Assembly (NCBI GenBank): GCA_945877135.1
Contig: CAMCQY010000021.1
Coordinates: forward strand, 1-39,178
Direction: 5' to 3'
Length of the DNA: 39,178 bases
Source of the DNA: Candidatus Kuenenia stuttgartensis
GTDB lineage: Bacteria; Planctomycetota; Planctomycetia; Pirellulales; UBA1268
The notes beneath the pieces are model-generated. The model was not told the origin of the DNA. It saw only the letters and a program-made list of their open reading frames with translations, and made no database searches. This document shows positions 27,246 to 36,043 of the stretch, one piece after another. Position 1 is the stretch's first letter; every line of letters starts with the position of its first letter. A program made the position numbers and the translations under genes.

Positions 27246-28139
27246 TCATTCGCGGTCGTAGAGGGCGTCTCGAGTGGCTGGATCGTTGGGGTCGCCGTCG
27301 CAGACATGACCGAGCCGCTTGAACTCCATGAGGTCGGCCTGAGGCTGGCTCATCCAGTTCGATCCCGGAACCTCGATGGCGAATTTCCACGGGTATGCCT
27401 CCACGTGGCCGTCGAGGAAGGCGACGTTGGCAGAAGACATATGCCGAAAATGCACCGACGGCGAATTCTCGCTCGGGCGCGTCAGACCGCCGAGGTTTTC
27501 CCGGAACTGGAGGTAGAAGTCGACCTTCGCGCTTTCGGCAAACGCGATCGTCCGCTTCGGCTCACGGACATCGGCGATGCGGTACTGACGGCAGCTGTTT
27601 ACGAGGACGACGGTCGGCCAATTGTCCCAATTCCACTCGGTGCCGGTCCCAAGGGTCGGGTTGTAATCGAACGCCGTCGCCACCCGGCCGAATCGGACGA
27701 AATCGATGGTATCGGCCCCGAAGCTTGGACACTGGTACGCCGCAGTGTTCCCCTCCATGAAAGGCGAGAGGGAGCCTTTTTCGAAATCGAGTTGCAGTCC
27801 CGGTGGTTGGTTTTCGTCGACCTCGCCAAACCAGTAGCGGCTCTTTCCCGGATAGGGATCCTGGTTGGGATCGGCGAGTGTACCGGCGATCCGAGTCGCA
27901 TCGTCTACCTTCAGGGGCAGGAGCTTGCCTCCGCTGGCAGACATGAAGTTCTGCAGGGCCAGTCCCAGTTGTCTGAGGTTTCCGGCGCAGCTCGTGCTGC
28001 GGGCCGCTTCCCTCGCCGTCTGCACGGCCGGCAGCAGCAATCCCACGAGTACGGCGATGATCGAAATCACGACGAGCAGTTCGACCAACGTGAAAGCGGC
28101 CCTACGCGCGGCGGCCCGATGTCCATAGCAAGCCTGCAT
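27246..28139 (-). CDS. DUF1559 prepilin-like protein under a cobalamin riboswitch
   Basis: A 297-residue protein from the ATG at 28139, preceded by GGAGG five bases upstream; the frame continues to a GTG at 28268 but without signal features. [53 protein letters not shown] is the prepilin cleavage site and helix followed by the DUF1559 signature. The residue before Phe is Ala rather than Gly. [19 protein letters not shown] near the end is a perfect H-X9-DG motif. DUF1559 proteins are abundant in planctomycetes and are thought to be secreted or surface pseudopilins. What is unusual is the leader: an aptamer for adenosylcobalamin lies 184 bases upstream. Confidence 0.92.
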
Positions 28140-28322
28140 GACAACCTCCATGCGGTCTCCCGCCACACTCCGGGTGCGCAGCACGGCCCTCTGACGGCCC
28201 TCTGACGGCACTCGCCCGGCGAAATGAGCAGACAGACCGATATCCTGATAAGCCAACAGCCTGCACACGCAGACCGTGCTCGTGTGACCGCCCTCGCAGT
28301 CGGCACGCGCTCCTCATGAAAA
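28140..28322 (-). other. Leader between the riboswitch and the DUF1559 start
   Basis: These 183 bases would be transcribed after the aptamer. They hold an 11-base tandem duplication, GGCCCTCTGAC twice (28185-28206 on plus), and a 71-codon frame (28317 to 28102, minus) that does not look like protein. I see no clear terminator with a T-run, so control may act on translation or through an RNA structure I cannot fold by eye. Confidence 0.5.
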
Positions 28323-28554
28323 CTGGTAGGTCTTCTGACTCCCAGACTCAGCCGACTGCATGCCTTCTCGCGATCCGCACGGCTTCGCCATGTGGATCGC
28401 AATGGCCTGATAACAGTCGACCTCTCTCTCCCCGTAGGCCCCGCTGGGGCTTGATCGAAGAGAATCGCCTGGACACAGCGGCGGGGCCGTCCCGGAATTG
28501 CACCGGAGTTCCCTGTTTGCCGGTTGTTCACAGCTGCAAACAACCGGCCACCAG
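28323..28554 (-). promoter_or_regulatory. Cobalamin (B12) riboswitch
   Basis: Read on the minus strand from 28554 to 28323. CTGGTGG (28554-28548) pairs with CCTACCAG (28330-28323) as P1. Then GGGAA-CTCCGGTGCAATTCCGGGA (near 28512-28490) matches the GGGAA..GGTG.AA.TCC core of P4-P5, followed by GGCCCCGCCGCTGT in place of GCTGCCCCGCAACTGT. The 3' box AGTCAGAAGACCTACC corresponds to the GCCAGGAGACCTGCC B12 box. The helix at 28519-28548 (GCCGGTTGTT with AACAACCGGC) takes the place of the usual P3 arm. Length and order fit the class. It most likely lowers expression of the genes downstream when B12 is plentiful. Confidence 0.9.
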
Positions 28555-28566
28555 ATTCGATTGCGG

Positions 28567-28594
28567 AGTCTATCGGTCGTGCCACCACTGTCAA
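28567..28594 (-). promoter_or_regulatory. Sigma70-like promoter of the riboswitch transcript
   Basis: On the minus strand TTGACA (28594-28589) and TAGACT (28572-28567) have a 16-base spacer. The start would be near 28560, only a few bases before P1 of the aptamer. That fit supports both calls. Confidence 0.7.
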
Positions 28595-29027
28595 GCTGTG
28601 CCGATCACGCCACCACAACCGGCACATCTTCACACACCGCACCTGTCAACGCGAAACCTTGCCGGTTGCGCAGACAAACCGGCTGAATCTGTAACGGTTC
28701 TCCGGCCCTGCGCCGCACAGACTGCATGCGCCTTACGCACGGCATTTCTTGCCCACAACACGCCACAAGTCGTGTGTTGAAAAATACTTGGGTGTCTCTC
28801 AAGCCGCTTTCCCCTGCCCGCCGATAGCCCCTCATGTCCCCCGGGGCAATCACTGTGCCCGTCGGGCAACCAGGGGGCGGTAGTAACCTGAAAATACTTC
28901 GAGTCACGGAATGGCTCGACAGGCCTGCCGCAAGACAGTTTCGTAGATCACAACCTCGGGGTGACCTCTACCTCGCGTTCGGGACGAAGACTCTCACGTG
29001 ATCTACACGCAAAGGAGATGTGGCTCG
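28595..29027. other. Divergent upstream region of the Cys-rich gene
   Basis: This 433-base stretch shows no gene. AAAATACTT occurs twice (28781-28789 and 28891-28899), 110 bases apart and each preceded by TGA, which could be a repeated operator. CCCCCGGGG lies near 28848. AAAGGAG (29011-29017) is the ribosome binding site for the gene at 29028. I could not pick a confident promoter. Confidence 0.45.
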
Positions 29028-29855
29028 ATGAAGCGTATGTTGTTCCTCGGTGCGCTGGTTTTCGGCGTCACCGTTTGTAGTCAGTCGTTTGGTTTCGAGC
29101 TCCTTGACCGGATGCTCGGCCATAAGGGGTGCACCTCGTGCTGTGAGCCCGGCTGCGATGCCGGCAATGGATGCTGCGATCCCGGCTGCGGTGCCGGCAA
29201 TGGATGTGCGGAGCCCGCTTGTGGTGCTGGCAACGGCTGTGCGGAACCTGCCTGCGGAGCCGGCAACGGCTGTGCGGAGCCGGCCTGCGACGCTGGTGCT
29301 GGCTGCTGCGAGCCGAGCTGCGGTGCTGCCAGGGGCCTCTGCAAGAAGAAGCATGACCTCTTCGGCGGTCTGAAGGGTCTGTTTGCTTGCAAGAAGCGTC
29401 TCCATGGCTGCACGGACAGCTGCTGCGAGCCGGCTTGCGGTGCTGGCAACGGCTGTGCTGAGCCGGCCTGCGGTGCTGGTAACGGCTGTGCGGAACCTGC
29501 TTGCGGAGCCGGCAACGGCTGTGCGGAGCCGGCCTGCGACGCTGGTGCTGGCTGCTGCGAGCCGAGCTGCGGTGCTGCGAAGGTCTGCGGGAAGAAGAAG
29601 CATCGGATTGCCGACCTGCTGAAGGCGATCCACCAGGCGAAGAAGAGCCGCTGCCACAAGGCAAGCTGCTGCGAGCCCGACTGCAGCGCTGGCTGCTGCG
29701 AGCCCGGCTGCGGTGCTGAGCCGGCCTGCGGTGCGGCTGCCTGCAGTGCTTGCGAGTCCTCGTCGGTTGCCCCGGCCCCCACGCCCGATGCGTCTGCCAA
29801 GAAGCAGACCACCGGCAAGGTGGTGGCGGTGAGCCGCACGGTTTCTGCCAAGTGA
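29028..29855 (+). CDS. Secreted Cys-rich modular repeat protein
   Basis: A 275-residue protein from the ATG at 29028, with AAAGGAG ten bases before it. The signal peptide is MKRMLFLGALVFGVTVCSQSFG. The mature protein holds about 42 Cys, mostly in the 11-residue repeat CAEPACGAGNG and variants CCEPxC. The repeats form two large blocks (each ending DAGAGCCEPSCGAA) and a shorter third one. Between the blocks are Lys/His-rich linkers that start [LC]xKKKH and end with CCEP, so the module 'repeat block + basic linker' occurs twice. The C-terminal 35 residues are Ser/Ala/Pro/Lys-rich. Such Cys density in an exported protein suggests either a disulfide-stabilised wall or coat, or metal binding. I do not know a described function. 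It is divergent from the B12-controlled unit. Confidence 0.88.
   Translation: MKRMLFLGALVFGVTVCSQSFGFELLDRMLGHKGCTSCCEPGCDAGNGCCDPGCGAGNGCAEPACGAGNGCAEPACGAGNGCAEPACDAGAGCCEPSCGAARGLCKKKHDLFGGLKGLFACKKRLHGCTDSCCEPACGAGNGCAEPACGAGNGCAEPACGAGNGCAEPACDAGAGCCEPSCGAAKVCGKKKHRIADLLKAIHQAKKSRCHKASCCEPDCSAGCCEPGCGAEPACGAAACSACESSSVAPAPTPDASAKKQTTGKVVAVSRTVSAK
29232..29580. repeat. Internal duplication in the Cys-rich gene
   Basis: About 100 bases from 29232 to 29331 recur at 29481-29580, offset exactly 249 bases (83 codons), with one difference that I can see. The near-identity at the DNA level suggests a recent in-frame duplication or gene conversion. Confidence 0.85.
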
Positions 29856-29907
29856 TGACCGGTCGATAGGTCGATCGGAGATCTGTTGCCCGACTTCGGC
29901 CAGTGAG

Positions 29908-29945
29908 CTCCGCCCGGGACCAAAAGTCCCGGGCGGAGTTTTTTT
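29908..29945 (+). terminator. Rho-independent terminator after the Cys-rich gene
   Basis: CTCCGCCCGGGAC (29908-29920) and GTCCCGGGCGGAG (29926-29938) form a perfect 13-bp stem with a CAAAA loop, followed by seven T. The T-run also contains the stop codon of the convergent ABC gene (29944). Confidence 0.95.
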
Positions 29946-30651
29946 ATGCGCTCGCCAGCCCGTCGGCCGACAGCACATCGCCCGCCAGGCCCTCGCGGGC
30001 GATTCGGCCGGCAGCGAGTTCCACCACCCGCGATGCAGCCCGCCTGGCGAAGCCGTGATCGTGCGTGACCACCACCATCGTCTGCCCGGCCCGGGCCAGT
30101 TCGACGATCACCTCCATCACCTCCGCAGCCATCGCCGGATCGAGCGCGCTGGTCGGCTCATCGAAGAGCATCACACGCGGCCGCATCGCCAGCGCTCGCG
30201 CGATCGCCACCCGCTGCTGCTGGCCGCCCGAGAGCGTGGCCGGTCGGGCGTCGGCGAAGGGGCGGAGGCCGACCCGGTCGAGCAGGTCGAGGCCACGGGC
30301 ACGGGCATCGCTCGCAGACAATCCCAGCACCACGCGGGGCGCCAGGGCGACGTTCTCAACCGCCGAGAGGTGGGGGAAGAGGTTGAATTGCTGAAAGACC
30401 ATCCCCACGTCGCGACGCAATCGTTCCAGGAGTCCCGGGGCCTGTGGCCCCGCCGCCAGTCGATGACCAGCGATCGTGACCTGCCCGGCATCGAACGTCT
30501 CCAGTCCGTTCAAACACCGCAAGAGTGTGCTCTTGCCACTCCCGGACGGCCCTACGAGCGCGGTCACGGTGCCCTCGGCTCCCTCGAGGCTCACATCGTG
30601 GAGCACGCGGACCTGCGCCCGCGACTTCGTCAGTGATGACACGGTGATCAC
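29944..30651 (-). CDS. Amino acid ABC transporter ATP-binding protein
   Basis: A 235-residue ABC ATPase of the polar amino acid (GlnQ/HisP) family. Walker A GPSGSGKST (34-42), Q-loop VFQQFNLFPH (85-94), signature LSGGQQQR (140-147), Walker B VMLFDEPTSALD (160-171) and H-loop His197 are all present. VFQQFNLFPHLSAVENV and FDEPTSALDP are typical of this family. It powers uptake through the fused permease encoded just upstream, 7 bases away. The stop lies in the T-run of the convergent terminator. Confidence 0.95.
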   Translation of the reverse strand: MITVSSLTKSRAQVRVLHDVSLEGAEGTVTALVGPSGSGKSTLLRCLNGLETFDAGQVTIAGHRLAAGPQAPGLLERLRRDVGMVFQQFNLFPHLSAVENVALAPRVVLGLSASDARARGLDLLDRVGLRPFADARPATLSGGQQQRVAIARALAMRPRVMLFDEPTSALDPAMAAEVMEVIVELARAGQTMVVVTHDHGFARRAASRVVELAAGRIAREGLAGDVLSADGLASA

Positions 30652-30658
30652 GATGCGG

Positions 30659-32158
30659 TCAGCCCTCCGTTCCGTCGGCAGCGGGCCGTTCCAACCGCCG
30701 CTCGAACCAGCGCGAGAGCAGTGCCAGCGGCCAGCTCATGCACAGATAAAGCAGCGCCGTGACGACGGCCAGTTCCACGATCCTGCCGGTGGAAAGCGCG
30801 AGCACGCTGTATCGCTTCGTGAGTTCGATCACGGTGATCGCCGAGCAGACGCTCGTGTCCTTGAACAGCGCGATGAAGTCGCTGGTCACCGGCGGCATCA
30901 CGATCCGCACCGCCTGCGGCACCAGCACATACCGCAGAGCCTGCCACTTCGAGAGCCCCAGCGACAGGCTCGCCTCGAACTGCCCCAGCGGCACCGCCTT
31001 GAGTCCGGCCCGGTAGATCTCCGACTCGTAGGCTGAATAGTTGAGCGCGAGGCCGATGACAGCCGCCGCCACCGCCGGCAGGGCGAGGCCGATCTTGGGG
31101 AGCAGGAAGAAGATGGCGTAGAGCTGGAGCATCAGCGGCGTGCCGCGAAGCACCTCGACATAGCCCGTCAGCAGCGGCTTGAGCCACGTTGGACCATGCA
31201 TCCTTCCCACGGCCACAGCCAGGCCGATGCCAACCGCCAGCGGAAACGCCAGGCACGACAGAAGCACCGTCATTCCGGCCGACTTGAGCAGGAGCGGCAG
31301 CGTGTCGCGGGCGAGTTCACCGAGTGTCTTCCGGCGGGCGACGGGGATCTCGGCGCCGTCGCGGAGCATGAGCATCTGCTGACGGCCGGCGAGATCCCAG
31401 CGATCGTAGAGCGACTTGAGCCGACCGTCGGCGATGAGCCGACCGATCGCCGCGTCGATCGCGGCCGACAGCTTCGGCGTGTCGCGGGCGGTGAGGATCG
31501 TGTAGAAGCCGCCGGCAAACGGCCGCTCCACCGTCCGCAGTCGGCTGAATCGGTCGGCATAGAAGTTGAAGATGCAGTCGTCCATCACCGCGGCATCGAG
31601 CACGCCCGACGAGACCTGTTCCAGCGAGTCGATCGTGCCGTCGTAGCCGATCACATCGACTTCGAGATCCGATCGCGACCGCATCACGCTCTCGGCGGCC
31701 GAGCCGGTGAGCACGCCCACCCGCCACCGGCCTTCAGGCCCAGGCGCGGCGAGCGTGTGGAACGTGTCCACGGGACCGTCGCGGCGGGCGAGCAACTGCA
31801 GGCTGTAGCCGAAGTAGGGCCGCGAACAGGAGTAGTCGCGCAGCCGTTCCGGCGTCAGTTCGATGCCGTTGATGACGCAATCAGCCGCGCGGCCGAGCAG
31901 CAGCGGCAGCCGGTCCCACTGCCCCTGCTGAAACCGCGGCTTCACCCCCAACTCTTCGGCGAGGAGCGCCGCAAGCTCGACCTCGAAGCCGGTCAGCCGC
32001 CGCGGATCGGCCGGGTCGGGGAAGACGTGGGGCCCGCCCCCTTCCTGATCGGCGGCCCAGATCAATTCACCGCGGGCCACCACCTCGTCGAGATCCGCAG
32101 CCACGGTCGCCGCCGTCAGCCAGCCGACGACGGCAAGGGCCCCCAGCAGGCTCTTCAT
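30659..32158 (-). CDS. Fused substrate-binding protein and permease of an amino acid ABC transporter
   Basis: A 499-residue protein. A signal peptide (MKSLLGALAVVGWLTAATVA) is followed by a periplasmic binding domain of the GlnH type (about 22-270: GELIWAADQEGGGPHVF, GFEVELAALLAEELG, GVLTGSAAESVM, LDAAVMDDCI). From about residue 285 comes the permease domain: TLPLLLKSAGMTVLLS, VLRGTPLMLQLYAIFFLLP, NYSAYESEIYRAGLKAVPLGQFEASLSLG and FIALFKDTSVCSAITVIEL. FEASLSLG is the EAA motif that docks the ATPase. The fusion tethers the binding domain to the channel, as in Firmicute GlnHP-type transporters. It likely imports a polar amino acid; which one is not shown. It overlaps the upstream GTPase gene by 4 bases. 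Confidence 0.93.
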   Translation of the reverse strand: MKSLLGALAVVGWLTAATVAADLDEVVARGELIWAADQEGGGPHVFPDPADPRRLTGFEVELAALLAEELGVKPRFQQGQWDRLPLLLGRAADCVINGIELTPERLRDYSCSRPYFGYSLQLLARRDGPVDTFHTLAAPGPEGRWRVGVLTGSAAESVMRSRSDLEVDVIGYDGTIDSLEQVSSGVLDAAVMDDCIFNFYADRFSRLRTVERPFAGGFYTILTARDTPKLSAAIDAAIGRLIADGRLKSLYDRWDLAGRQQMLMLRDGAEIPVARRKTLGELARDTLPLLLKSAGMTVLLSCLAFPLAVGIGLAVAVGRMHGPTWLKPLLTGYVEVLRGTPLMLQLYAIFFLLPKIGLALPAVAAAVIGLALNYSAYESEIYRAGLKAVPLGQFEASLSLGLSKWQALRYVLVPQAVRIVMPPVTSDFIALFKDTSVCSAITVIELTKRYSVLALSTGRIVELAVVTALLYLCMSWPLALLSRWFERRLERPAADGTEG

Positions 32159-34014
32159 CGCGTGTCTCCGCGAAGGCGGCCGAGGCCACTGCTCGGCTCG
32201 GTCAGGCGGGCCAGCAGCGTCTCATGATCGCGAGTAAGACGGTCGGCCTGTTCGATGAACTGGGTCGTGGCGTCGGCGGCTGCGGCAAAGTCAGCCAGCA
32301 GCGGATCGGTGAGATGAGCCTGCGGCAGCCGGGCGACGAGCGTTTGGATGTCGCTGTCGAGCCCCACACGAACGCGGGCAAACGCGATCCACCGCAGCAA
32401 GAAGCCCCACAGAATCACCCAGACGAGCGCCTCCTGCAGGAAGCCGCCGCCATCCACCACGCGGCCCTGCCAGAGGTGGCCGACGAAGAAATTCCAGCCC
32501 GCCCGCACGAGCACCGCCACGAGCAGCCCCGAGAAGAGTGCCTCGCATACCCAGCGAAACACCGGCCCATCGATCCGTTCGCGCCGGTCGGCGACGAGCC
32601 GATCGATGCCGGAGGAGAGCCAGGCGGCGGTTCGCTCGAGCAGCGGGCCGACGGTCGAAGCGACATGGGCATCGTCAAGCCGGGCCCGCCCCACCAGCGG
32701 CTCAGCCAGCCGGGCCCGCGCAGAAAGCCCGCAGAGCACGCTTCGCGACTGCTCGACTTCCGCAGCAGAGAGCCCCAACTCCTCGACCGCCTGCCAAGTG
32801 CCCTGCCCTGCGGGCTTGATGTCGGCCGGCTGACCAGAGAGCAGACGACTGATCAGCCCGCCGCCGGCAGCACGCATGCGTGGCCAGAACGCGATGATCG
32901 ATTCCACCACGTGGAGAAACGACGCGAACGGTCCCCCGTGCCAGCGTTCCACGATCTCGCTGGTGAGGATGCGTTGCCAGGCCGTGCGACTTGCCCGCAG
33001 CCGCGAGCCGACCGACCTCGCGAGAATCCCCTCGAGCCTCGTCCGTTCGCTCGCGACGCCGGCGGAGAGCTGCGCCACGGGCCCGCGCAATGGGGCCAGG
33101 GCTTCCTGCGACTGCCTCAGAAACCAGCCGGCGAGGTCGAGGCTGCCGGTGCGGCGAACGCGACGGGCGGCCCGCCCCACCAGTTCCGCGTCGATCGCCT
33201 CCACCAGCTGACGAAAGCCGGCGTCGGGCTCGAGGCCCGCAGCAGAACGCGTCGCCGCCTCGACCCCATCGAGCCGGAAGATCCGCGGCACGATGAAGCC
33301 CTGCGACTCCAGTTCCCGCCGCCAGTCGTCCCGAATGTCGGGATCACGCGAGGCGTGAGTCTGCACGAACAGCAGCGGCCGGCCCGGAGCGAAGGCGGCC
33401 ACCTCGCGGGCGACGACCCACGAGCGGTATTTCTGCGCCGTTGACACAAGCAGGAGCACGTCGCAGGCGGGCAGCACAGCCTCGAGGAGTTCGCGGTTGT
33501 GATTGCTGTCACTCGGCCGGGCGGGGCCGTGTGGCGTCTGCCCACTTCCATGCCGCGGGGCCTCCGCCTGCGTGTCGGGGTCGGGGCAGTCAACGAGGAC
33601 GATGTTGGCGACCGCCGCGGCATCGCTGCGAACGACGCGGGCGTTCATCGCCTCGACCGGCAGCCAGGAGAGATCGACATCGCGGGCCGCGACCACCACC
33701 GGATTGATCGTGGTCGGCCGCGCGATGTCGCCTGCAGGGCTCAGATCGCAGCCGGCCAGCGCGTTGACGAGCGTGCTCTTGCCGGTGCCGGTGCCTCCGA
33801 TCACGCCGACGACGAGCATCCTGGAAAGCTCGCGGCGGGCGCGGTCGAGCCGCGGTTCGATCTGTTCCCATTCCGCCCGCACCGCCCGGGCCGGCGGCCA
33901 CTCCGGCAGCGAGCCGCTCCAGCGAGCGAGTGTCTCGACCAGTTCGTCAAAGCTGGCAAAGTCGATCGGTTCGCCGCGAGGCTGTTGAAACGACTGGTCT
34001 TGTTGCTCGTTCAT
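32155..34014 (-). CDS. Membrane-associated GTPase A of a paired operon
   Basis: A 619-residue P-loop GTPase. G1 is GGTGTGKST (73-81), a Thr-rich switch I is GDIARPTTINPVV (95-107), G3 is DCPDPD (142-147), and the G4 position reads QTHASRD (218-224) instead of NKxD, so guanine recognition is degenerate. STAQKYRSW (191-199) follows the switch II helix. After a long helical middle come two hydrophobic helices (about 505-560: LFSGLLVAVLVRAGWNFF and LQEALVWVILWGFLL), so the protein is inner-membrane bound. This resembles bacterial dynamin-like or YfjP-type GTPases. The ATG overlaps the stop of GTPase B (4 bases) and its own stop overlaps the permease start. Confidence 0.85.
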   Translation of the reverse strand: MNEQQDQSFQQPRGEPIDFASFDELVETLARWSGSLPEWPPARAVRAEWEQIEPRLDRARRELSRMLVVGVIGGTGTGKSTLVNALAGCDLSPAGDIARPTTINPVVVAARDVDLSWLPVEAMNARVVRSDAAAVANIVLVDCPDPDTQAEAPRHGSGQTPHGPARPSDSNHNRELLEAVLPACDVLLLVSTAQKYRSWVVAREVAAFAPGRPLLFVQTHASRDPDIRDDWRRELESQGFIVPRIFRLDGVEAATRSAAGLEPDAGFRQLVEAIDAELVGRAARRVRRTGSLDLAGWFLRQSQEALAPLRGPVAQLSAGVASERTRLEGILARSVGSRLRASRTAWQRILTSEIVERWHGGPFASFLHVVESIIAFWPRMRAAGGGLISRLLSGQPADIKPAGQGTWQAVEELGLSAAEVEQSRSVLCGLSARARLAEPLVGRARLDDAHVASTVGPLLERTAAWLSSGIDRLVADRRERIDGPVFRWVCEALFSGLLVAVLVRAGWNFFVGHLWQGRVVDGGGFLQEALVWVILWGFLLRWIAFARVRVGLDSDIQTLVARLPQAHLTDPLLADFAAAADATTQFIEQADRLTRDHETLLARLTEPSSGLGRLRGDTR

Positions 34015-35909
34015 CGGGAAACCTCCCGGACCGCTTCGCGGCCGATATCACGGCCAAGGTCTCGCCCAAGGTCCCGCCCGCACTCCACGAGCAGCCGGCG
34101 GGCCCGTGTCACTTCGGGCGCCGCGGCCGCGTTCGCCAGGCGGTCGATCTCCTCGAGCCTGTCGCCGAGCACGACGTCGTGCAGCGTCTCCGCGAGCACG
34201 CGGCCCCGTTCCGCTGACCAGCCGGCGAACAGCGTCTCGATGAGCGGTTTGAGCCCTGCCATCGTCAGGCCGAGCGCCCCCTCGCCGGCGATCGTCGCGG
34301 CCGTTCCCACGACGACGTCACCCACGTGGTGGACGAGCACGGACAGCCCTCCGGCCGAGGCCGCCGCCGCGGGCACAGCCGCCGCTCCCGCCATGCCGAG
34401 CGCCACGGTGATTGCGGGCCGCGCCACCGCGCCGACATTCAGCCCCGTGAGGATGAACCGCACCATGCCGGGGTTCTCCTTCGCGAAGCGGTCGAGTTCG
34501 TTGCGGACAAATGTGCGGTAGTCCTCCGACACCAGCGGCAGGCTCGCGTGGCGGCGTTCGAGGTCGGCATACCACGCCGCGCGGTCGCCATCCACGAGCC
34601 GGCCCCCGAGCATCGCGGCCAGCCGCGGATTGCGGCGGCAGGCGTCGTCGAGCCGTTCGACGAAGTCGCCGAGGGCGGTCTTCAGTGCCGCCAGTTCGAC
34701 CGTGGAAAAATCCTCGCGTCGCTCCGCCTCGCTGCGGACCAGGCCCACCTGCCGTGCCGCCCAGTTCACCCCCTTGCCCGCCACGCGATAGACCTTGCTG
34801 ACGGTGAGGTCGAGGCCCGAACGACGCGGTTCGAGCCACTGCCAGATCTCGTTCCAGACGATTTCGCGGGGCGCGGTGGGCAGTTCCACCCGCACGTGGG
34901 CCTCGTCGGTCAGCAAGCGTCGGGCGTCACGCCACTCTTTCGCCGTCGTCTCGAAGGAGTCGAGCCAGCGGCCGGCACCGGTCTCGGGATCGAGCACGAC
35001 GCGGAGAGCCCCCTCCATCGCCTGCAGCTTGATGCGATCGAAGTCGCAGTCGGCCAGTCGGACGGCGAGGTCAACCGCGGCCCCGTCGGGTGTGAGTTCA
35101 GGCAGTGGATGAAACTCGATCCGCCCCGCCTCGGCGGCGCGGAAGTCGTGGGGCACGGCGTAGACGGCCAGCGGCGCGACACCTGTCTCCGCGGTGAAGG
35201 TCGTCAGCCAGCCGCCGATGCGATCGCGTTGCCGCGGCCAGTCGATCATGTTGAAGACGACGACCACGGCCTTGCCCGCAGCCGCTGCGGCGGCGAAGAA
35301 ATCCCGCACGGCGGCGTCGTTGTATTTCTGCTGGGTGAGCACGGCCACGATCACGTCGCAGGCGTTCCGCACCAGCTCGGCCCGGTGCCAGTTTTCCCGC
35401 AGTGTGCCGTCGATGTCGGGCGTGTCGAGAAGCACGAGCCTGGCGGGCTGCCGGCCGCTGGCATCCTCGCGCCACACGAGCCGGTCGGCGTTGCCGCTCG
35501 CATCCGGCCCGAGGTCGATCGCGTCCTGCACGCTCTGCCATGCCGCAAGCGCGAAGCCGGGAAAGAGCGCCGCCAGATCGGTGCGGGCGGCGAGCCCCTG
35601 CGGGAGACTCGCCACCGGATGGCGGGTTCGCGCCGCCTCAGGCACGGAGCGGCTGATCTCCGCGGCCACGAGCGTGTTGGTGATCAGGCTCTTGCCGGTG
35701 TTGGTGCCGCCGCAGACGGCCGCGACGAGCACGGGCTCCCGCGACACCTGGGGCCGGAGTTTGCCAAAGAGCGCGCCATACCAATCGTCGGCCTGCGGAT
35801 CGGGGGCGCCGAGCGAGTGGGCCAGCGGTCGCAGGGTGTCGATCAGGCCGCACAGCTCTTCAACGCTGCCGGCCCACACCGCAAACCCCGTCCGAGGGAA
35901 AGATGCCAT
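34011..35909 (-). CDS. Membrane-associated GTPase B of a paired operon
   Basis: A 632-residue P-loop GTPase from the ATG at 35909 (MASFPRTGFAVWAG); the frame upstream to 36035 has no support. G1 GGTNTGKS (67-74), G3 DTPD (162-165) and a G4-like NMID (220-223) are seen, and LTQQKYND (191-198) matches the STAQKY of GTPase A. A long helical part is followed by a Gly/Ala-rich hydrophobic region near the C-terminus (ITVALGMAGAAAVPAAAASA, then VGTAATIAGEGALGLTMAG), and the tail carries the repeat GRDLGRDLGRDIGRE. Two such GTPases in a row, each with different loops, suggest a heterodimer, as in paired bacterial dynamin-like proteins. It is the first gene of the four-gene operon. Confidence 0.85.
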   Translation of the reverse strand: MASFPRTGFAVWAGSVEELCGLIDTLRPLAHSLGAPDPQADDWYGALFGKLRPQVSREPVLVAAVCGGTNTGKSLITNTLVAAEISRSVPEAARTRHPVASLPQGLAARTDLAALFPGFALAAWQSVQDAIDLGPDASGNADRLVWREDASGRQPARLVLLDTPDIDGTLRENWHRAELVRNACDVIVAVLTQQKYNDAAVRDFFAAAAAAGKAVVVVFNMIDWPRQRDRIGGWLTTFTAETGVAPLAVYAVPHDFRAAEAGRIEFHPLPELTPDGAAVDLAVRLADCDFDRIKLQAMEGALRVVLDPETGAGRWLDSFETTAKEWRDARRLLTDEAHVRVELPTAPREIVWNEIWQWLEPRRSGLDLTVSKVYRVAGKGVNWAARQVGLVRSEAERREDFSTVELAALKTALGDFVERLDDACRRNPRLAAMLGGRLVDGDRAAWYADLERRHASLPLVSEDYRTFVRNELDRFAKENPGMVRFILTGLNVGAVARPAITVALGMAGAAAVPAAAASAGGLSVLVHHVGDVVVGTAATIAGEGALGLTMAGLKPLIETLFAGWSAERGRVLAETLHDVVLGDRLEEIDRLANAAAAPEVTRARRLLVECGRDLGRDLGRDIGREAVREVSR

Positions 35910-36043
35910 CTCGCTACACTTTGGATGAAAAACGTCTAGACTTCTTTGAACAGTGTGTCTTCCGCCGCCGTTTGCCGCAAATCCAGCCGGCGGGCCGCGG
36001 GCCTTAGGCCAGCCATTTTTCCTCACGCAGACCATCCACTCCC

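Follow-up and report, generated by a model that had tools for sequence, protein, structure and literature searches.

Does the reading frame at 29028 to 29855 encode a genuine exported protein and, if so, what might a chain so rich in cysteine be for and how is its synthesis controlled? The window (the whole stretch of 39,178 nucleotides that was analysed) carries this frame on its + strand. The original prediction had counted about 43 cysteines in it, or roughly one residue in six, and the count was confirmed: the 275-residue protein contains 43 Cys (15.6%), 42 of which remain past the predicted signal peptide, alongside 47 Ala, 44 Gly, 20 Lys, 17 Pro and 15 Glu. The features of the gene are given below, where the order is Pirellulales as judged from the names on the matching records (Pirellulales, Pirellulaceae, Blastopirellula and unclassified Planctomycetaceae).

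29028..29855 (+), gene for the 275-residue Cys-rich protein with predicted export (ORF analysis, family search, dN/dS)
29028..29093 (+), predicted signal peptide, residues 1-22, cleavage inferred after SFG (sequence and 23-member alignment)
29130..29342 (+), Cys-rich block 1, residues 35-105 (composition)
29343..29408 (+), linker 1, KKKHDLFGGLKGLFACKKRLHG, Lys/His-rich, with its LFGGLKGLF portion kept order-wide (composition and alignment)
29409..29588 (+), Cys-rich block 2, residues 128-187 (composition)
29589..29651 (+), linker 2, KKKHRIADLLKAIHQAKKSRCHK, Lys/His-rich, with the amphipathic helix IADLLKAIHQAKK, residues 188-208 (composition, alignment, structure model)
29652..29753 (+), Cys-rich block 3, short, residues 209-242 (composition)
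29754..29852 (+), Cys-free C-terminal tail, APAPTPDASA...KVVAVSRTVSAK, with a related tail across the order (alignment)
29905..29941 (+), intrinsic terminator, 16 pairs and a U tract (terminator analysis)

Purifying selection (median dN/dS of 0.18 over 268 pairs at 80% identity or above, which are not independent of one another), the Shine-Dalgarno sequence AAAGGAG and the intrinsic terminator together identify 29028 to 29855 as a real gene, and the terminator predicts that it is monocistronic. Its cysteine richness is not a product of chance either: of 1641 distinct ORFs in the DNA examined that were 150 residues or longer, 96 contained at least 12% Cys, and those inspected were relatives' copies of the same gene, frequently with a start taken further upstream, and perhaps one shadow frame of it (L131). 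The predicted N-terminal signal peptide, MKRMLFLGALVFGVTVCSQSFG followed by F, ends in SQSFG and is standard-looking, and together with the repeat blocks and an order-wide family it agrees with the modular, exported protein that had been proposed. A bacterial lipoprotein was considered and rejected, since the -1 position of Cys17 is occupied by V or L, Cys17 itself falls within the signal peptide, and several members of the order lack it.

The exact 11-mer CAEPACGAGNG occurs four times, at residues 60, 71, 143 and 154, while C-x-E-P-x-C-x-A-G-x-G repeats run through residues 38-98 and again through 132-181, followed by a short third block at 209-242; there are thirteen C-x-[ED]-P-x-C units in total. 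The repeat and the Lys/His-rich linkers were therefore as originally described, but there are three blocks and not two. Structure prediction, which had been put forward as a check, was run with a 23-row alignment and returned helices at 22-30 and 193-209 (the latter with a pLDDT of ~75), but the Cys blocks were left without confident structure and the mean pLDDT was 48.

Homologues were detected in 46 of 59 relatives searched, and a profile built from 23 members matched 215 of 297 order genomes, mostly at one locus each; some Pirellulales genomes had no detectable copy in this profile search. Across a phylum-wide sample of 392 genomes, the profile matched 11 members of the order and gave 3 weak matches elsewhere in the class (G383, G401, G633), which were rejected as family members and taken as compositional because the leader RNA described below was found only in order members of the same sample. 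The family conserves its N-terminus, MK(R/W)...GALVxSVxLCSQSFGFELLDRMLG, along with the linkers, the PxPxDxSAS tail and several Cys, and Cys content reaches up to 28%. Pro (5.1%) and Cys (6.8%) are the least replaced residues, compared with 18.5% for Ala, and His is among the more frequently replaced. Odd and even Cys counts are about equally common in the mature proteins (40:44), which fits inter-chain bonds or a use other than disulfides better than a closed intramolecular set. In eight homologues (G184, G212, G220, G251, G020, G027, G011, G024) an in-frame stop falls inside the profile-aligned region; either these members may manage without the C-terminal tail, or the stops may be assembly errors.

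The window protein matched no Pfam (E up to 1), NCBIfam or PDB entry, in keeping with the statement that no characterised member was known, and the close match to a well-described family that had been named beforehand as refuting was not found. Pfam Keratin_B2_2 (PF13885, hair high-sulfur keratin) matched 5 of the 23 members, with a best value of 4e-5, but not the window protein, and these matches were read as composition or convergence, not homology. Hair keratin-associated proteins carry dense CCxPxC-type repeats and are cross-linked through disulfides; the family shares CCxPxC repeat units with the high-sulfur type, but differs in being bacterial and of an exported type, with Lys-rich helical linkers and a conserved N- and C-terminus. 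Chlamydial OmcA and OmcB, exported Cys-rich proteins of a disulfide-linked envelope in a related phylum, may be analogous as Cys-rich envelope proteins of an exported type, but the repeat and the architecture are different, and no Pfam family of chlamydial outer membrane proteins matched the window protein or the 23 members. To my knowledge, the proteins named so far for a disulfide sacculus are the YTV proteins. These YTV-domain Cys-rich proteins are described as planctomycete-specific and as coming from cell-wall preparations (Hieu 2008; Mahajan 2020a, as cited in PMC8567305), and the window protein resembles them in being Cys-rich and planctomycete-specific. Unlike them, the present family is encoded roughly once per genome, behind an RNA leader, and no YTV domain was found in the window protein (Pfam E up to 1) or in the 23 members (E up to 0.1).

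A cross-linked coat component is a plausible role for this protein and the leading reading here. The mature protein would be extended and mostly unfolded, its Cys/Pro/Glu-rich repeat blocks spaced by short cationic amphipathic helices (FELLDRMLG, LFGGLKGLF and IADLLKAIHQAKK), and after export its cysteines would cross-link it into a surface or envelope matrix, in the style of hair keratin-associated proteins. Such a matrix would fit older reports on the same group, in which planctomycete envelopes have long been described as a disulfide-bonded protein sacculus (cited in PMC2754498 and PMC8567305). Searches showed DsbB to be absent from 27 of 30 genomes (the window's own and 29 relatives) and VKOR to be absent from the own genome, which weighs against simple disulfide formation, and another oxidase or oxygen would be needed to form the bonds.

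The main rival to the coat reading, and a rather unlikely one, is a periplasmic or surface metal sponge or metal-delivery protein, whose Cys/Glu/His clusters would chelate soft metals and whose leader or promoter would sense metal or redox stress. The 42 Cys, 15 Glu and 6 His of each chain, with vicinal CC pairs among them, would suit this role, as would the random parity of the Cys count and the fact that DsbB and VKOR are not evident; yet no metallothionein or other metal family profile matched the window protein or the 23 members, no metal transporter or regulator is kept beside the gene, where the neighbours are not conserved, and His is one of the more frequently replaced residues. Moreover, the gene is kept as a single copy throughout an order of varied habitats, according to the records, unlike typical mobile metal-resistance genes.

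The most informative feature, absent from the original prediction, is the conserved structured RNA leader with its promoter, and here the following elements were located.

28779..28792 (+), upstream promoter element GAAAAATACTTGGG, order-wide form tGAAAAtTACTTccG (homologous-locus alignment, conservation profile)
28799..28827 (+), promoter-like TCAAG-N16-GCCGATAG, kept across the order (alignment, genome pattern search)
28834..29027 (+), 5' leader, approximate, its start inferred from a -10-like box; single copy in the genome
28877..28931 (+), three-helix leader stem (model R1), GCGGUAG..CCUG..CGAGUC-ACGGAAU-GGCUCG..CAGG..CUGCCGC (covariation, about one copy per genome)
28906..28912 (+), apical loop ACGGAAU, a candidate CsrA site of the form A-N-GGA (ANGGA in homologous loops)
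29011..29017 (+), Shine-Dalgarno sequence AAAGGAG, also an ANGGA element and a possible second CsrA site (sequence, alignment)

The region upstream of the gene is highly conserved in close relatives, and this conservation reaches into other families. Order-wide, the leader is preceded by a tGAAAAtTACTTccG-like block and then by TCAAG placed ~16 nt before GCCGATA; the promoter region as a whole (28779-28827), including the upstream GAAAATTACTTCCG-like element, is strongly conserved throughout the order. Searching the own genome for TCAAG-N16-GCCGATA gave 4 matches compared with 6 for the reversed control, which is chance level, and no regulon could therefore be built from the core pattern. The FliA consensus spacing differs from that of this pattern by ~2 nt, and a sigma-28-type regulon was rejected on the grounds of this spacing and the chance-level counts.

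The evidence for the leader stem came from covariation. In a hand-cut alignment of 32 sequences, which was not fitted to any model, 95.4% of the cells paired, and 47 double-change cells were counted, where shuffles gave 13.7 and slid controls no more than 4; RNAalifold returned a nearly identical stem unaided. Extending the analysis to 66 distinct sequences found with the RNA model, an alignment that is fitted to the model and hence biased towards it, gave 95.6% paired cells, double changes at 13 of the 17 pairs, and 122 double-change cells, where shuffles gave 32.7 and slid controls no more than 20. The outer helix was replaced wholesale between members, as in GCGGCAG/CTGCCGC, GCGTCAGG/CCTGACGC and GCATCGA/TCGATGC. 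Folding of the whole leader was no more stable than that of shuffled sequence (z -0.65).

A covariance model of the stem matched 169 of the 297 order genomes, nearly always once. In all 16 genomes that had an RNA match but no match to the protein profile, a Cys-rich ORF of a predicted exported type and of the same design was found downstream, ~150-310 nt beyond the stem, two of these ORFs being cut by contig ends. The leader RNA and the Cys-rich protein thus form one conserved unit, and a stem match points to the gene even when the encoded protein has diverged beyond the reach of the profile. When the window and ten relatives were scanned at permissive settings with the Rfam 15 covariance models, no credible match to the leader emerged. 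Rhodopirellula-1 is a candidate RNA, possibly cis-regulatory, that the table in PMC2864571 lists in Planctomycetes and Proteobacteria without an Rfam accession; going by that table listing, both are candidate planctomycete cis-RNAs, Rhodopirellula-1 differs in being listed also in Proteobacteria, and the two may or may not be the same RNA.

In the apical loop, ANGGA was present in 66 of 70 matches with N freely variable, one of the four exceptions being a chance match elsewhere in the window, and the loop consensus was A-N-GGA-N-(U/C), where N is any base. The loop is 7 nt long in most members. Most of the few 8-nt loops could, on inspection, fold into an ANGGAN hexaloop with a closing G-C or G-U pair, and the loop of the window could be reduced to CGGAA by an A-U pair. 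RsmE contacts ANGGAN, the CsrA/RsmE pattern, and extra loop nucleotides can weaken RsmE binding (PMC7652899). The leader thereby resembles CsrA/RsmE-regulated leaders in its hairpin showing A-N-GGA and its ANGGA-like Shine-Dalgarno sequence (PMC7652899), but is unlike them in its mostly 7-nt loop instead of the preferred 6, in its three-tier stem, and in being one gene-specific leader kept across a whole order. CsrA was encoded in all 20 genomes examined (the window's own and 19 relatives), with 3 to 9 matches each and 6 in the window's genome, and given such a loop and a csrA gene in every genome, control of the leader by CsrA is the best guess, the sites being candidates for binding. Three to nine CsrA genes per genome is an unusual multiplicity for a global regulator, and the leader is a candidate target for the several CsrA genes that these bacteria carry.

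Two other roles for the leader were weighed. It is improbable that the stem merely stabilises, or aids translation start of, a very abundant mRNA, with A-N-GGA serving the ribosome or another protein: the stem does start ~45 nt from the inferred transcript start, and the strong Shine-Dalgarno region is kept across the order, but a plain stabiliser needs no invariant A and GGA flanking a freely variable base. A ligand-binding riboswitch in place of a protein-binding hairpin is very unlikely. The leader is structured, covarying and gene-specific throughout the order, as a riboswitch would be, but outside the apical loop the paired positions hold most of the conserved stem nucleotides and the large internal loop is variable both in length and in sequence, which makes poor aptamer material, and none of the Rfam riboswitches matched. 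A switch that pairs the apical hairpin with CTCG before the start codon was also considered and found no support, since the 5' strand has changed to CGGG in some members while the sequence before the start stays CTCG (e.g. L132).

Taking protein and leader together, the best joint explanation, which I put tentatively at about 45%, is a stand-alone Pirellulales unit in which a CsrA/RsmE-family protein controls the synthesis of a cross-linked surface or envelope matrix. The unit would comprise its own promoter, the structured 5' leader RNA, the secreted Cys-rich repeat protein and the terminator. A CsrA/RsmE-family protein would grip the A-N-GGA apical loop while its second site holds the AAAGGAG Shine-Dalgarno region, and would in this way set translation and/or mRNA stability, with both the binding and the direction of regulation presumed here. 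It is doubtful, on the other hand, that this is an order-defining unit in which one CsrA paralogue reads the gene-specific RNA and so times a keratin-associated-protein-like coat that forms the basis of the disulfide layer reported in the 1980s for Pirella/Planctomyces. An adhesive or holdfast component, an extracellular thiol store or a precursor of Cys-rich antimicrobial peptides is highly improbable, for although R. baltica is described in one account as having motile and sessile stages and a holdfast substance (PMC2754498), and Cys blocks here alternate with cationic amphipathic helices, no protease, exporter or immunity gene is conserved alongside and the repeat architecture looks structural.

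The protein is an independent, order-wide and sequence-defined candidate for the proposed disulfide-bonded planctomycete coat. Both the family and the leader were absent from the libraries searched (Pfam, NCBIfam, PDB and Rfam) and are apparently uncatalogued. What is new is the order-wide coupling of a keratin-associated-like protein of an exported type with its own RNA leader, each half being of a known kind.

Finally, the surroundings of the gene were compared between relatives.

28308-28570 (-), cobalamin riboswitch, divergent from the Cys-rich gene
27246-28268 (-), DUF1559/N-methylation pseudopilin-like gene behind the cobalamin riboswitch
30659-32158 and 29944-30651 (-), ABC transporter of the amino-acid type whose binding protein and permease form a single fused chain

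The gene had been described as divergent from a B12-controlled unit, and the cobalamin riboswitch is indeed there, but it is kept only in close relatives (14 of 15 close loci, 0 of 5 distant loci). Control of the Cys-rich gene by B12 was rejected, as the riboswitch lies on the opposite strand and is missing in distant relatives; it is part of the neighbourhood of close relatives only and lies outside the conserved unit. Synteny comparison showed that the neighbouring genes differ between families, and the adjoining ABC transporter was consequently not taken as a partner. Further along, at 32155-36035 (-), two large GTPase-like genes lie side by side; one of them encodes a dynamin N-terminal domain, and they are possibly a membrane-remodelling pair.
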